This document shows, piece after piece, positions 20 through 61,481 of a stretch of DNA of 64,000 nt. The notes beneath the pieces were generated by a model. It saw nothing but the letters and a program-made list of their open reading frames with translations. It made no database searches and was not told where the DNA came from. This DNA comes from Anadara kagoshimensis (Eukaryota > Mollusca > Bivalvia > Arcoida > Arcidae). Each line of letters starts with the position of its first letter. Position 1 is the first letter of the stretch. The DNA is taken from positions 8,404,704-8,468,703 of the forward strand of contig CM037869.1 of the NCBI GenBank assembly GCA_021292105.1, given 5' to 3'. Both the position numbers and the translations under genes were made by a program.

Positions 20-720
20 CAAATACCTGTCTGTCTCCGGTTTGATTGAAGATGTTAAGGTGTACAAGGCAAGGACTACACGGGTACATGTATATGTTAA
101 CTTCGATTTGAAATATTGACAATTCTAACAATATGATGTAATAAATCATAAGTTATAAATAGAGTGTCTATGTTTTGACATGTGCCTAAACATTAACATT
201 AGCTTAACATTAAAACAGGTATCATTCCGGAGAACCCGGTCTCGTTTTTCTGTGACAGTTTGCGTGTTTAACCTTGATTTGGTAATTCCAATTAGTTTTG
301 GGATTGTGAATTTTGACATGTAATGATATGTTGTTTTCATTGACAATAGCATAAGCATATTACATGGAGAGAGAGAGAGAGAGAGGGGAGAGAGAGAGAG
401 AGAGACGATTGTAGGTAGATGGATAAAAGTTCCGGGCCAATCTCCTGTTTAGTTCCTCTTTGACTCAAGATATTTGGATCTATGATCTTGATCAATATAT
501 CGAAATGAGCGATACATTTTAATATATACATCTTTTCCGGATAATTAACCACTTCAGTATTCTAATGGACATAAAATTTTAAACTTCCTTCGGAAAATTA
601 ACTTGTAATATCAAAATAATTGTTTTATCATACTTCGTCTAGTGGTTTATTTATAAATTGTCTGCGATATAACTGATTCGTATCAGTTAAGCATTAGTTT
701 AATCAAGGGACCCTCAAACA
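20..720 (+). repeat. Mosaic of Penelope-like-related and LINE 3'-tail sequence
   Basis: No intact gene. The stretch about 20-545 is a diverged paralogue of about 2990-3660: same order of motifs, such as ACTACACGGGTA, AATATGATGTAAT and CATTCCGGAGAACCCGG. Positions 180-350 resemble the tail of the Penelope-like element found elsewhere in the window. Positions 366-404 are an AG-rich microsatellite. Positions 545-720 match the 3' end of the I/Nimb-like LINE at 59.3-61.5 kb, including its last codons (ILNFLR-type) and the 3' UTR words TGTTTTATCATA and AAATTGTCTG. This LINE tail is an uninterrupted copy of the site occupied by the THAP transposon at 3.7 kb. Confidence 0.6.
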
Positions 721-2029: not shown

Positions 2030-2535
2030 TTAAGCACAGTTATAATCCCTCGTGCAAATTATTTCCTTAGCTAAATTTGGTAAAATAGGTCCTTTAGGTA
2101 TCCTGAAAACAATTTTTGGTTTCATAATTTTAGTCCAAGCACTACTGATGAGTAATTGTATTCCGAAACGGCAGTGTAGTGATGTAAAAATTAAAACTGA
2201 TATATGTAATTTAAACCACTGAGCCGGTATCTCTACTGGTGGCTGGTGCCCTAAGCATATCACAAACTAACTAGGCAATAATTGAGTATTATTGTTAGAA
2301 ATATAGTATTGTCTAAATTGCTGCCAGTTAAAATTTTAAATTCTACAAAACAAAGGTATACCCCCTTATGCAAAGTATTTTCTTGGCTAAATTTGGTAAA
2401 ATATATTTTGGTCCTTTGGGTAATTTTTCAACATCTTGAAAGCAATTTTGGTTTCATAATTTTGGTCCAAGCACTGCGGTCTAGTGCTGTAAAATTAAAA
2501 CTGGTATATGTAATTGTTTTTGAAATCTGACAATC
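2030..2535. repeat. Two tandem copies of an unclassified ~230-bp repeat
   Basis: Copy 1 (about 2030-2262) and copy 2 (about 2305-2535) share TGCAAA..ATTTCCTTGGCTAAATTTGG-type sequence, GGTCCTTT.GGTA, TTTGGTTTCATAATTTT and GTCCAAGCACT. A third copy lies at 45930-46150. Copy 2 keeps an extra leading segment (CTGCCAGTTAAAATTTTAAA) also seen at 45920. No protein similarity is recognised. Confidence 0.65.
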
Positions 2536-2828
2536 ATCTGGCGATCATTTTCAAACCGATATATTTACAATATGACTGTACCTGTGTTCGATGAAATATA
2601 CAGAAGCACTTGTATTTCAATTCCCAATGAAAGACTATGGGGGTCATGACCCTTGATGTGTATCAATTTTCCCGCAATATTACGTCATGGCCTATACAGG
2701 GGGTCGCGTGGTCATGTGAGACACGCCGATCTCGCATGGCTAAAAACCCTAAATCACACGAGCAAATATGGAAAAAATAGCGCCAAGGTACAAAATATTT
2801 ATTAAAAAGAAAGAATTGTAAATTTAAG

Positions 2829-2979
2829 AAATGACATTTCTGCTCATGGTATTTCAAGGGGTAATGAAAGATAGTGTGGCGCGTGCCAAATTAAAAATGA
2901 AGGGCCCTTCATTTTAATTTGGCACGCGCCACACTATCTTTTATTACTCCTTGAAATACCATGAGCAGAAATGTCATTT
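2829..2979. repeat. Near-perfect 76-bp hairpin palindrome
   Basis: The arms 2829-2904 and 2905-2979 are reverse complements with almost no spacer; the centre is AGGGCCCT at 2901-2908. Only one single-base indel and about two mismatches are visible across the arms. Transcribed or single-stranded, it would fold into one long stem. It may be a foldback MITE or two fused ends of the same repeat. Confidence 0.85.
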
Positions 2980-2989
2980 TTTATTTGAA

Positions 2990-3690
2990 ACCAAATACTT
3001 GCCTGTTTTTGAGTGGTGATGTTACGGTGTGTAAGGCACGGGCTACACGGGTATATGTTCGATTTTAAATATTTTATTGCCAATTGTACCAATATGATGT
3101 AATTAATCATAAGTTAAAATAAAGTGTTTATCTTTTTGGCATGTGTACCTAGCTAAACAGCCGAATAGGAGGTACGTATCCTTCCGGGGAACCCCGTCTC
3201 GCTTCCCTGGTGAAAGCAAGCATGTTTAATCTTAATTTGCCAGTTTCTAAGGTTTAAGTAGTTTTTTTTTGGAGAGTGATTTTGACATATACTAGTGTTT
3301 GTTTTTCATTGGCATTAGCATAAGCATATCACATTACATTGCATCAGATCACGTTGCATGTTTTATAACATGTAAACATATGATTGCGAGATAGTGTGTG
3401 TGTGTGTGTTAGAGAGAGAGGCGATTGTAGTTAGATGAATAAATGCTCCGGACGCACCTCCTGTTTAGTTGGCTGCAACCGCCTATCCCGTCCCGTCTCT
3501 GTGACTAAAGACATTTGCATCTATGACCTTAATCTATATATCGAAATCGCCTATCCCGTCCCGTCTCTGTGACTAAAGACATTTGCATCTATGACCTTAA
3601 TCTATATATCGAAATGAGCGATATATTGTTATATACAAAGTTGTGTTTTACAGAAATTTACTCACTTAAGTATTCCAATGGGCATAAATT
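2990..3690 (+). repeat. Second copy of the 0-0.6 kb mosaic, with a 68-bp duplication
   Basis: Paralogue of about 20-580, interrupted at 3691 by the THAP transposon and resuming at 5271. It contains a GT microsatellite and an exact 68-bp tandem duplication (3480-3547 and 3548-3615) absent from the 0-0.6 kb copy. The right part (3660-3690) is the I/Nimb-like LINE tail in which the transposon sits. Confidence 0.7.
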
Positions 3691-3859
3691 TTAAAGAGGT
3701 TATAAACCCTAATTTTAAAATAATATATATTGTTAGGATTGATAGTAAGTATCAACATTTCAACACTTGTTTATGTTTATTCTGCTCTAATTATCAGCAG
3801 TTGATAGATAAACCTGACACAGTGGAGGTCGCCATGATTGTATACAGAGCAGCCTGACT

Positions 3860-3878
3860 GTGACGTATATGTGGCACT
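3860..3878 (+). repeat. Subterminal inverted 19-mer, left
   Basis: GTGACGTATATGTGGCACT, exact reverse complement of 5046-5064. It lies 84 bp upstream of the THAP-domain ATG at 3963. It is a plausible transposase or THAP binding site; that role is inferred. Confidence 0.85.
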
Positions 3879-3962
3879 ATCTTATTACATACTACATACA
3901 CCAGCATCTATACATAATAGTTGGACACTATCCCTAAAACACACACAAATTTTTATTCAACA

Positions 3963-5042
3963 ATGCCTCAGTGTAAAGCAAAATTTTGTTCTGTGAAACG
4001 AGGACAGGGTATAAGCACCTTTCCAATACCCGACCCCACTAAAAATAAGGAATTATGTGAACAGAGGATTCATAAGTTGGGGATTGAAAATTTAAATATA
4101 AAAACTTTCAAGTTTTCCAGAGACAGTATTGTATGTGCCAAACACTTTGAAGAACAATGCTTTAAAGAAGATGTCCAGGCCAAGATAATGGGGTACACAC
4201 CTAAATATAAATTTTTAAAAGCAGATGCCATTCCAACCATTTTCGAAGACACAGAACAAACCAAAGGAAGGGAGAGTAGCAAAAATAGATTTCAAAAGAA
4301 ACAAAGGCAGAAAATGGTAGAGGAAATGTTGAAAAATGATTTTGGAGAATCAACAAATTCGTCATTTGAAGAAATAATGTCAAGAAATAAAAGAAAGCAC
4401 GAAAAACAACCATCAGGAAAACAAAAACAGAAGAAAGAAATGACAAAATTTGTAGATGTAGCTGAACAGACGCAAACAGATGTTTCAAACATGGCTACAT
4501 CATGCAACATTTCATCTGACTTCACTTACAATGACTGTCCAAACTGTTATGCACGGGAAAACCCAACATATGCTTTAAATGACCACTCATATACTGATAC
4601 AGCAATTTTGGAGACAGAAAATAGAGTCATAGCAAAAACACCACCTAAGAAAGTTAATACAACTGAAGAAAATGTTAAAAATATGGAAGATAATGAAGTT
4701 TTTGAATTCAATACACCGGAAAAAGAATACAGAGATGACCCAACATATAAACCAGTAGGAAGTTATGATGCCTCCCCGATTGTTTCTCAGCACTCTGCAA
4801 GTCTTGCTGATGGAAATCGATCTAAAAACTTTGTAGAGGAGAAAAAATTCATTGTATTTTCAAGTTGTTTGGTCACACTATTTGGCATGGTAGTCTGTAT
4901 TGATTGCAAAGATTCTATTGATATTGATGATATACGGTACCGATTCGATGGCACATGTGTTCAAAATCACTGTCATCAGACGACATTATTATGTATTTTT
5001 TTTATTTCAACATACTATTTATCAACATTAACTAAGTTGTAA
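3963..5042 (+). CDS. THAP-domain protein, truncated transposase N-terminus
   Basis: Open frame from 3921; I prefer the ATG at 3963 because THAP domains typically begin MP.C, giving about 359 aa. Residues 1-85 form a THAP zinc finger: Cys pair in MPQCKAKFC, then CAKHF (C-x2-H) and the closing hydrophobic AIPTIF motif. Next comes a Lys/Glu-rich low-complexity linker with a QTQTD motif, then a segment beginning KKFIVFSSCLVTLFG. That segment is typical of the region just before the catalytic part in longer THAP transposases, from memory of the family. The protein then ends with unrelated residues, so no DDE catalytic core is present. An AATAAA overlaps the stop (5041-5046). The protein probably binds DNA in the nucleus. 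A P-element-KP-like repressor role is a hypothesis. Confidence 0.8.
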   Translation: MPQCKAKFCSVKRGQGISTFPIPDPTKNKELCEQRIHKLGIENLNIKTFKFSRDSIVCAKHFEEQCFKEDVQAKIMGYTPKYKFLKADAIPTIFEDTEQTKGRESSKNRFQKKQRQKMVEEMLKNDFGESTNSSFEEIMSRNKRKHEKQPSGKQKQKKEMTKFVDVAEQTQTDVSNMATSCNISSDFTYNDCPNCYARENPTYALNDHSYTDTAILETENRVIAKTPPKKVNTTEENVKNMEDNEVFEFNTPEKEYRDDPTYKPVGSYDASPIVSQHSASLADGNRSKNFVEEKKFIVFSSCLVTLFGMVVCIDCKDSIDIDDIRYRFDGTCVQNHCHQTTLLCIFFISTYYLSTLTKL

Positions 5043-5045
5043 TAA

Positions 5046-5064
5046 AGTGCCACATATACGTCAC
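5046..5064 (-). repeat. Subterminal inverted 19-mer, right
   Basis: AGTGCCACATATACGTCAC, exact inverted copy of 3860-3878, beginning 4 bases after the THAP stop codon. Left and right copies therefore bracket the ORF tightly. Confidence 0.85.
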
Positions 5065-5274
5065 GATTGCTACCGACATCTGGTCTTTGTACAGTAGGGG
5101 AGCTTATCAGACTGTTAAGATGGCGATGCCCAGCATCACAGTTATACAGTATTAAATGAACCAGTAATTACTTACACAGACCGCTAATGAGATTAAGGAC
5201 TGTGAATTTGACACAGTCTATTAATATGCATTAGATAAAGAATGAGAAAAAAATAGGGTTTACTATCACTTTAA

Positions 5275-8410: not shown

Positions 8411-8510
8411 CAAAGGCAATCCTGGACACAGAGACATTAAACTTATTAACAATTCTGTGATGACGGCCAAAAAACTTTCGAGGGGCTTCATAAGCCTAGG
8501 CTTGCAATAT
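8411..8510 (-). repeat. Penelope-like RT C-terminal fragment, minus
   Basis: Matches 61927-62030 in the same orientation (CAATCCTGGACACAGAGACAT, CATAAGCCTAGGCTTGCAAT). It represents the last codons of the RT ORF on the minus strand, broken. Confidence 0.65.
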
Positions 8511-8569
8511 ATCAAGATATATCGATATATTCTAATTTATAGAGAAAGTAAGGTTTTACAAATAAATAA

Positions 8570-8720
8570 TTACTTCAGTATTCTAAAGGCAGTTGACATA
8601 AAAATTTAATTTTCCTTCGGGAAATTATTTTGTTTAATAAAATCTAATTGTTGTATTATATATCATCTGACTTGTTTGTCGTATAACCGATCTTATCAAT
8701 TACGTATTGTTTATATTATC
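8570..8720 (+). repeat. I/Nimb-like LINE 3' tail
   Basis: Shares ACTTCAGTATTCTAA..GACATAAAA.TTTAA..TTCCTTCGGGAAATTA with the tails at 550 and 59.5 kb. Confidence 0.6.
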
Positions 8721-59294: not shown

Positions 59295-61467
59295 TGAGTG
59301 AGTGAGTGAGTTATTGTTTAAAGCCGAATCAGCATTAATGCAGCTATTCGCGGCTGGAAAAAGTAAAAGATACAATAGTATCAATAACACAAAGTATTAA
59401 AATGTAAAGTTAAAAATAACAACAAATACATTTTTTAATAAAACTATTGCTAAACTGATAAAAACCAGTTATATCACAGACAATTTAGAAATAAAACATT
59501 GGCTTATATATGATAAAACAATTATATTTTATGATACAAGTTAATTTCCCGAAGGAAGTTTAAAATTTGATGTCCACTGACATTACTAAAAAGATCTTGC
59601 ATTGATAATGCTGAATAAAAAGTATCCCTTGTATGTGCAAAGTCAACACAATCCAGCAAAATGTGCTGGATAGATTGTTGACCTTGACAAGGGATACACT
59701 GGGGAGGTTGTTCTCCTTTCAATATAAAAGAATGTGTAAAATAACTATGGCCGATTCTACAGCGCCGAAGAACAATACTTTCATGCCTATTGTACTGGGA
59801 CAAAGGTGTAAATCCCAGACAAGGCTGAATTGAAAATAATGTATTACGTTCTTGGCTATTCCAATGACTTGACCATTGATCATTGATATAATTGTATATC
59901 AATGGTTTTAAATCAGTATGCGGAATTGCGCAAGAAGTTATATTTTTAGACAATGCTGCTTTAGCAGCTGAATCGGCTTTTGTGTTGCCTTTAATACCAA
60001 CATGGTTAGGCAACCAACAATAATGTATTATTTTATTAAAGTCTGAAACTGCATATGTAATTGAAGTATGCAATTCCAGAATTTCACTGATTAGAGGGTG
60101 ATCAAAATTTCTGCTCTTTATTGCCCGAAGGACAGATAGAGTCGGAGCATATAATAAAATTGTTATGAGGCGATTTTGAAATAAACTGTAAAGCAAGCAA
60201 TATTGCTTTAGCCTCAGCTGTGAATATGGAGCTTTCATTTGGAAGGCGAATACTTATTGTTTCGTCTCCAATAACTGCGGCTGCTGATACCCGACCAGCA
60301 GTTTTGGATCCATCAGTATAAATTGGATGCCACTGTCGTAGTTCCTCTCTAATAATTGGAGGAATTAAACGACTATATCCATCTTTAATAAAAGCAAATT
60401 CCTGTTAATAAACGTCTTGGCTTGTTTCTGACTTTTTATAGTTTGTTAAATCCAAATTGACTTCTGGTTTATCAAGAAGCCAAGGTGGATCATCTGTTAA
60501 TTTGTGTTTTTTAATACGATTTAGTTGTAAATTACATTCCTCCAAATGTGGTTTTAAACGTATTCCTAAAGGTGCAATAGCATTAACCTTTTTATTGTAT
60601 AGCTCTTGATAAGGAGGATTAAAAACACAGTGAAATGCCGGATTTGATGGATTTGCAAATAATTTTGTGGCATATTGCAGAGATAATTTAGTACGCCTTA
60701 AATGCAGTGGAGGTTCATTAGCTTCCACGTACAATCTATCAATTAGAGACGTTTTAAAAGCTCCCAAACATATTCGTAGACCTTGGTGATGAATTGTATC
60801 AAGGTCTTTTAAATATGATTTACGGGCAGATCCATACATAATAGACCCGTAATCCAGTTTAGATCTGATAAGTGACCTGTATAAATGAAGTAACGTTGGT
60901 TGATCACCACCCCAGTGTGTATTGGATAAAACCTTTAAAATATCCAATGCCTTAAGACATTTAGCCTTGAGACTTTTAATATGGGGAATAAAAGATAATT
61001 TGGAATCAAATAAGATTCCTAAAAACTTAGCTTCTTTTACGACTTTAATAATACTGCCATTGATATAAAGTTCAGGGTCATTATGCATTTTGCGTTTATT
61101 ACAGAAATGGATACATGAAGTTTTAGTTTTTGAAAACTTAAACCCGTTTTCTAATGACCATTTTTGTATTTTGTTGAGGCAAAGTTGAAGTTGCCTTTCA
61201 ATAGCATGCATATGTGTCCCTCTACAGGAGATGCCAAAGTCATCAACAAAGAGAGATCCATCTATGCTATTGTTTAAAACTTTAGCTAAGCTATTTATTT
61301 TAATGCTAAAAAGAGTTACAGATAAAATACTACCTTGCGGGACACCCATCTCTTGATCGAAGACATCAGAGAGGGTTGACACCAACCGAACTTTGAATTC
61401 TCGATTTTCGAGAAAGTTTTTAATAAAATTAGGAGTATGACCCCTAAGACCCATATCATGAAGATCT
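59295..61467 (-). pseudogene. I/Nimb-like LINE, 5'-truncated, with TSD
   Basis: Minus strand. RT frame 60405-61472: MGLRGHTPNFIKNFLENREF, GVPQGSILSVTLFSIKINSL, DGSLFVDDFGISCRG (VDD rather than ADD), SKTKTSCIHFCNK, KFLGILFDSKLSFIPHIK, LYRSLIRSKLDYGSIMYGSA. Then, in a second frame, RNase H: HPIYTDGSKTAGRVSAAAVI (Asp) and IFTAEAKAILLAL (Glu), YCWLPNHVGIKGNTKADSAA (Asp). Finally zinc-like CIPCQGQQSIQHILLDC and the end ILNFLREINLYHKI at 59525. RT followed by RNase H suggests the I group. The 3' UTR ends in a TGAG/CTCA microsatellite (59295-59310). Breaks near 60170 and 60405. Confidence 0.85.
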
Positions 61468-61481
61468 GGCACGGGAAGAAG
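61468..61481. repeat. LINE target duplication, right
   Basis: GGCACGGGAAGAAG, exact copy of 59281-59294; marks the 5' (truncated) end of the LINE. Confidence 0.85.

Follow-up and report, generated by a model that had tools for sequence, protein, structure and literature searches.

An open THAP frame in the bivalve Anadara kagoshimensis is very probably the remnant of a young, internally deleted Kolobok transposon

An open reading frame with a THAP domain, lying in a 64,000-nucleotide stretch of Anadara kagoshimensis DNA (the window), is very probably a transposase remnant inside a young, internally deleted, non-autonomous Kolobok copy of the Kol0 type. A previous sequence-only reading had proposed two more consequential roles for it, as a natural repressor-type derivative or as a step towards a host THAP gene. 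Since a damaged-looking THAP finger here sits in a leftover transposase frame, the element is most likely an ordinary dead Kolobok derivative, with neither a functioning repressor nor a new host gene in it.

Read directly from the sequence, the element occupies positions 3695–5270 (1,576 bp) between two copies of TTAA, at 3691–3694 on the left and 5271–5274 on the right, exactly as the sequence-only reading had it. Repeat searches and a genome-wide search with the end patterns placed its terminal inverted repeats at 3695–3716 (plus strand) and 5249–5270 (minus strand). They have the imperfect AG.G.T starts noted before (AGAGGT.. and AGTGAT.., matching at 17 of 22 positions), and together with TTAA they form a repeat of 26 nt that is 81% complementary. 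When the two flanks are joined with a single TTAA, they align across the junction to window positions 456–636 (plus strand, 82% identity), to 59579–59509 on the minus strand (85%) and to 8507–8660 (72%). As the joined flanks match paralogous sites with one TTAA, the empty site is demonstrated and both insertion and target are genuine, in agreement with the earlier proposal of empty LINE tails near 575 and 59550. The site at 456–636 lies in a LINE-like tail and the one at 59509–59579 where a LINE frame (59522–60238) ends, adjoining the frame 60405–61472, which has a reverse transcriptase match (RVT_1); the insertion target resembles a LINE tail. Directly left of the element, inside the LINE-like tail, positions 3480–3615 hold a perfect 68-bp tandem duplication (100% identity between the two copies).

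These ends suit Kolobok, whose features according to Kojima and Bao 2022 (PMC9587614) include a TTAA target and RR..YY termini. The element begins with AG and ends with CT, its target-site duplication is the 4-bp TTAA, and a sibling copy on contig C15, described below, likewise has TTAA on both sides. A piggyBac-type or other TTAA element that had captured a THAP domain would share the target site, as the same authors indicate, but the RR..YY termini are Kolobok-like and unlike those of piggyBac (PMC9587614), and the gene content, with a MULE/P-like core bearing DxxH in the relatives and KolX in the sibling, already contradicts such a reading. We rejected piggyBac membership on termini and gene content, and regard capture of this kind as extremely improbable. 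The identification of a TTAA-bounded THAP transposon thus stands, with Kolobok as its superfamily.

The open frame runs on the plus strand from an ATG at 3963 to a stop at 5040–5042 (359 codons plus stop, or 373 codons if counted from an upstream TTG). Open reading frame lists, Pfam and alignments assign residues 1–332 to the N-terminal part of a Kolobok transposase and residues 333–359 to antisense read-through. A THAP domain was detected at residues 4–94 (positions 3972–4244, plus strand; Pfam PF05485, 38.5 bits against a cut-off of 23.9, E 2e-9), whereas Pfam found no transposase domain in the frame, matches to DUF3736 and CIS_TMP falling under their cut-offs. The single 359-residue frame with THAP and without a catalytic domain is therefore as the sequence-only reading described it. 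Both by Pfam and by the point at which homology stops, after the motif DGTC, the DDE catalytic core is missing from the window copy itself, which makes it a non-autonomous derivative and not an autonomous Kolobok member. In a protein search with the frame, three of 504 candidates matched at E ≤ 1e-3, one of them an assembly protein and the others predicted in Ostrea edulis and Saccostrea cucullata, which by themselves suggest a bivalve host; among solved structures there were two weak THAP matches only, THAP2 (E 0.022) and THAP1 (E 0.038). The sequence-only reading had also held that an open frame stands out in this window. It is indeed the longest of 18 frames of at least 120 residues, but the argument is thin, as the LINE frame at 60405–61472 is nearly as long (355 residues).

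Several hallmarks of the THAP finger are kept, namely the zinc ligands C4, C9, C58 and H61, residues P23 and F62, and the AIPTIF box. The core tryptophan is lost: codon 35 (positions 4065–4067, plus strand) reads AGG, arginine, in the window copy and tryptophan in all 13 other aligned rows that have this position (the C15 copy and 12 others). The four full-length relatives P0004–P0007 begin downstream of position 35 and were excluded from this count. Their predicted methionine starts fall within the THAP domain at nearly one place (window residues 1–78), which hints at an intron there in their species; in the window and C15 copies the coding sequence runs through this point unbroken. Mutation of the THAP tryptophan abolishes DNA binding in THAP1. 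Our literature search returned no measurement of the effect of this tryptophan. According to a report cited in PMC7334247, mutating the hydrophobic core of THAP1 can reduce its folding and stability. Hikosaka and Konishi (PMC6004289) list C2CH, P-W-F and AVPTIF as key THAP residues of Kolobok transposases; P-W-F is retained by 33 of the 38 copies in X. tropicalis and by all 24 in X. laevis. A copy without the tryptophan is thus not unheard of, as the X. tropicalis figures show. The Pfam THAP score falls from 49.9 bits in the C15 copy to 38.5 in the window copy. W35R has probably damaged the finger, and with the core tryptophan lost the protein, if made, would most likely be non-functional.

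To place the element in its genome we searched a 1.115-Gb assembly, in which all match counts are lower bounds. The element gave six DNA matches, the window copy included. The left-end pattern occurred at three places, with 0, 0 and 1 mismatches (a reversed control also gave three, at up to 3 mismatches), and the right-end pattern at two, with 0 mismatches (control 0). One of the left-end places, C1:13431555, was discarded as a copy, as it shares only about 54 bp and no right end of the family was found in the 4.4 kb downstream. The search for same-ended copies that had been suggested as a check thus returned a single further copy with both ends, of 2.7 kb, at C15:34399864–34402583, making two both-ended copies in 1.115 Gb. 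This sibling is identical to the window copy at 942 of 953 bases on the left (98.8%) and, on the right, at 309 of 314 aligned columns, the other 5 being gaps. It carries a different internal deletion: window positions 4644–4959 are missing from it, and about 1,450 bp are present that the window copy lacks. The extra DNA encodes a transposase C-terminus (62% identical to P0004 residues 518–706, with one internal stop) and, on the opposite strand, two KolX exons with Pfam P2RX7_C scores of 28.8 and 41.8 bits (the P2X7 intracellular/ballast domain). Joined through an apparent 256-nt GT-AG intron, the exons would give 190 codons, and the two-exon KolX gene appears intact (positions 4494–3669, minus strand, of locus C15:34397800–34404800, L007). 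At 2337–3023 on the plus strand of that locus lies a THAP-only frame of 228 residues that keeps W35 and all THAP motifs and ends soon after the copy's own deletion junction.

The deletions of the two copies are not nested, so both copies must descend from a longer parent, and as these near-identical copies each keep parts that the other has lost, the parent's gene content can be shown: a THAP-bearing transposase on the plus strand with a convergent KolX gene (P2X7 ballast) containing one apparent intron. In the window copy the deletion junction falls at 4959–4961, to within a few ambiguous bases; the match to C15 restarts at 4960, and homology to P0004–P0007 ends after DGTC, at residue 332. 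The window DNA that follows is antisense to the first nine codons of KolX (MSSDDSDFE; positions 4960–4986, minus strand; compare L007 from 4494 downwards, P2RX7_C) and to the region upstream of KolX, and for this reason the frame's final 27 residues are accidental and not transposase.

P0004–P0007, relatives from other genomes, align with the window frame up to DGTC and continue into a zinc-rich stretch followed by GDGRCDSPG, TDRH, DVWH and LExYH. The suggested check, whether a full-length relative runs on past KKFIVFSS into a DDE core, therefore gave a positive answer: these relatives continue in this way after KFIVFSSC. Across 41 rows, in P0007 numbering, D413, D417, D481 and D502 are invariant and H505 and E628 are conserved in at least 90%. 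A DDE core with the C/DxxH signature is present in these full-length relatives; the assignment of a D, D, E triad is our reading of the motifs together with the DxxH signature of PMC9587614. In an AlphaFold model of P0007 (mean pLDDT 72.9, core mostly above 90), the best of five Foldseek matches with E ≤ 0.001 were to the transposases of ISCth4 (E 4.6e-8) and the P element (E 8.9e-5), with TM-scores that are low (0.20–0.26) when normalised to the model used as query. With the missing parts carried by C15 and by the relatives, the view that the element is a truncated derivative of a longer one is upheld. According to passages of Kojima and Bao 2022 (PMC9587614), the Kol0 lineage combines a DDD/E transposase with KolX, which has a P2X7 ballast fold; KolX with this domain was found in C15, and the window copy keeps its nine start codons only. 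Our putative Kol0-type assignment comes from the gene pair of transposase and KolX, not from a tree.

No full-length parent was found in the 1.115-Gb assembly, and we infer its exact sequence, the mechanism of deletion and any microhomology where the ends were joined. Interrupted gap repair is the mechanism of internal deletion in P elements. On this model, a longer Kolobok copy would have inserted by cut-and-paste at a TTAA in the LINE-like tail, and its middle would later have been lost, probably through interrupted gap repair after excision. The deletion would have fused codon 332 of the transposase to KolX codon 9 read in antisense, the frame then running on for 27 more codons by chance. 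Through its intact ends the window copy could once have moved in trans.

A target for repression was sought in the same assembly. P0004 gave at least 58 matches (63 of 103 first-look candidates were scored), none of which, outside the two siblings, exceeded 44% identity; over P0004 residues ~360–520, the core region, identity was at most 43%. Used as a DNA query, the C15 element yielded at least 13 matches including both siblings, the others being two older copies (79–88%), an end piece (81%) and scraps of about 45–80 bp. In these lower-bound searches we found no autonomous or catalytic-core copy of the window family. Kolobok frames of other, distant families are present in the assembly: at C6:50637130, C16:31752056, C11:7511391 and C14:40426533 (genome G000) lie Kolobok-like frames of ~580–600 codons without stops, 24–25% identical to P0004, which may represent active or domesticated families. 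On contig C13, two loci at 4.81 Mb and 3.57 Mb (L008 and L009) are 93.5% identical over about 3.8 kb and contain a degenerate transposase C-terminus and KolX exon 2; they look like one old insertion duplicated on that contig, in which the left part of the element was not found at the thresholds used.

We also identified an inner inverted repeat that is absent from the earlier reading. Its arms, at 3860–3891 (plus strand) and 5033–5064 (minus strand), match at 84% over 32 nt, with 19 nt exact; their distances to the element ends are about 165 and 206 bp. Exact repeats of at least 16 nt with arms at least 100 apart occurred in 0 of 1,000 mononucleotide shuffles (14 nt in 7 and 12 nt in 99 of 1,000); when any distance and palindromes were counted, repeats of at least 14 nt arose in 321 and of at least 18 nt in 22 of 2,000 shuffles. 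An 18-nt core of the repeat recurs in both arms of the C15 copy. Passages of PMC3688188 place binding by the Galileo THAP domain ~70 bp from the element end and by that of the P element at 53–63 and 41–51 bp. By analogy the inner repeats are candidate THAP sites; they are placed upstream of both gene starts, transposase and KolX, which makes a promoter role equally possible. In degenerate form the right arm survives in both C13 loci.

Does selection maintain the frame? Over codons 1–227 (681 coding nt), the window and C15 copies differ by eight changes, five replacement and three silent. Five or fewer replacements are expected in 28% of neutral cases (P 0.28), and the 5:3 ratio is thus not different from neutral. 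The dN/dS comparison across copies that had been suggested as a check could be made against C15 alone; it yields a crude 0.48, which on eight changes can neither prove nor exclude constraint. The clearly polarised replacements, at codons 35, 117 and 168, are all derived in the window copy, judged by the nearest homologues. Codons 10 and 223 are not polarisable, codon 10 being serine in several distant homologues but threonine in the nearest two that are named. A single change creates a stop in about 5% of cases, and after eight random changes no stop would be expected with probability 0.66 for codons 1–227 and 0.68 for all 359 codons (kappa 2). As the frame stays open in about two-thirds of cases, no selection is needed; by this reckoning it appears to be open because the copy is young.

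These results bear directly on the two proposed roles. A KP-like repressor would be a THAP-only protein that occupies the end sites and blocks mobilisation of full-length Kolobok elements. Passages of PMC12393704 describe P-element repressors as interrupted transposases with a DNA-binding domain, and the window copy is itself an interrupted transposase whose open frame keeps C4, C9, C58, H61 and AIPTIF and whose inner inverted repeats near both ends could serve as binding sites. However, W35R strikes the THAP core, the derivative was found as a single copy with no sign of spread, the assembly search brought up no catalytic-core copy of the family that it could repress, and the clearly polarised replacements are all its own. 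We consider the repressor role very unlikely and do not retain it. In the literature searched we found no KP-like regulator for Kolobok, the Kolobok papers PMC6004289 and PMC9587614 containing no 'repressor' within that search. Harder still to credit, and highly improbable, is an emerging host THAP gene whose frame selection maintains because it serves the host: this reading could appeal to the longest frame in the window list and to the crude dN/dS of 0.48, but the changes do not depart from neutrality, the copy is very young and sits in a LINE-like tail, the THAP tryptophan is gone and 27 residues of its tail are accidental. The step towards a host gene is accordingly not borne out.

Were a THAP-only repressor to exist in this family, the C15 sibling (228 residues, tryptophan kept) would be a better candidate than the window copy. 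Its frame stops near the deletion junction beside an apparently intact KolX, and the assembly resembles an experimental P-element population (PMC12393704) in which full-length insertions were missing from at least 6 of the 11 individuals sequenced. Yet C15 too is one copy, and an intact domain in a remnant diverged by 1% is expected without any function; a repressor role for C15 is quite unlikely. The extended scenario, in which the Kolobok invasion disabled itself, with the C15 THAP protein acting as a KP-like trans-repressor on the 19-bp subterminal repeats and the window copy as its decayed version, we likewise rate as quite unlikely. An ordinary dead derivative remains our preferred reading of the window copy.

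Set beside known systems, the window family resembles Kol0 elements of the Kolobok-1_XT type, as described in parts of PMC9587614 and PMC6004289, in its TTAA target, RR..YY ends, the relatives' THAP-DDE transposase and the sibling's KolX, which in this family lies on the strand opposite to the transposase; unlike them, the window copy has no catalytic core, nearly no KolX and no THAP tryptophan. Internally deleted P elements such as KP (PMC12393704) likewise combine an internal deletion and an interrupted transposase with both ends and the THAP-coding part. They belong to another superfamily, and the window copy, found as a single copy, has a mutated THAP core residue. With the Xenopus T2-MITEs (TTAA, AGGRR ends; passages of PMC6004289) it shares non-autonomy and Kolobok-type ends, but those form an amplified miniature family, whereas the present element is long, single-copy and derived by deletion, and its frame is open.

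Our analysis, of value mostly as annotation, identifies a low-copy Kol0-type Kolobok family with opposite-strand KolX in a bivalve genome, and two independent internal deletions of one parent. As a candidate site for binding by a Kolobok THAP domain, the subterminal inverted repeat is open to test. More generally, the case cautions against taking an open THAP frame in a young transposon as a sign of co-option.
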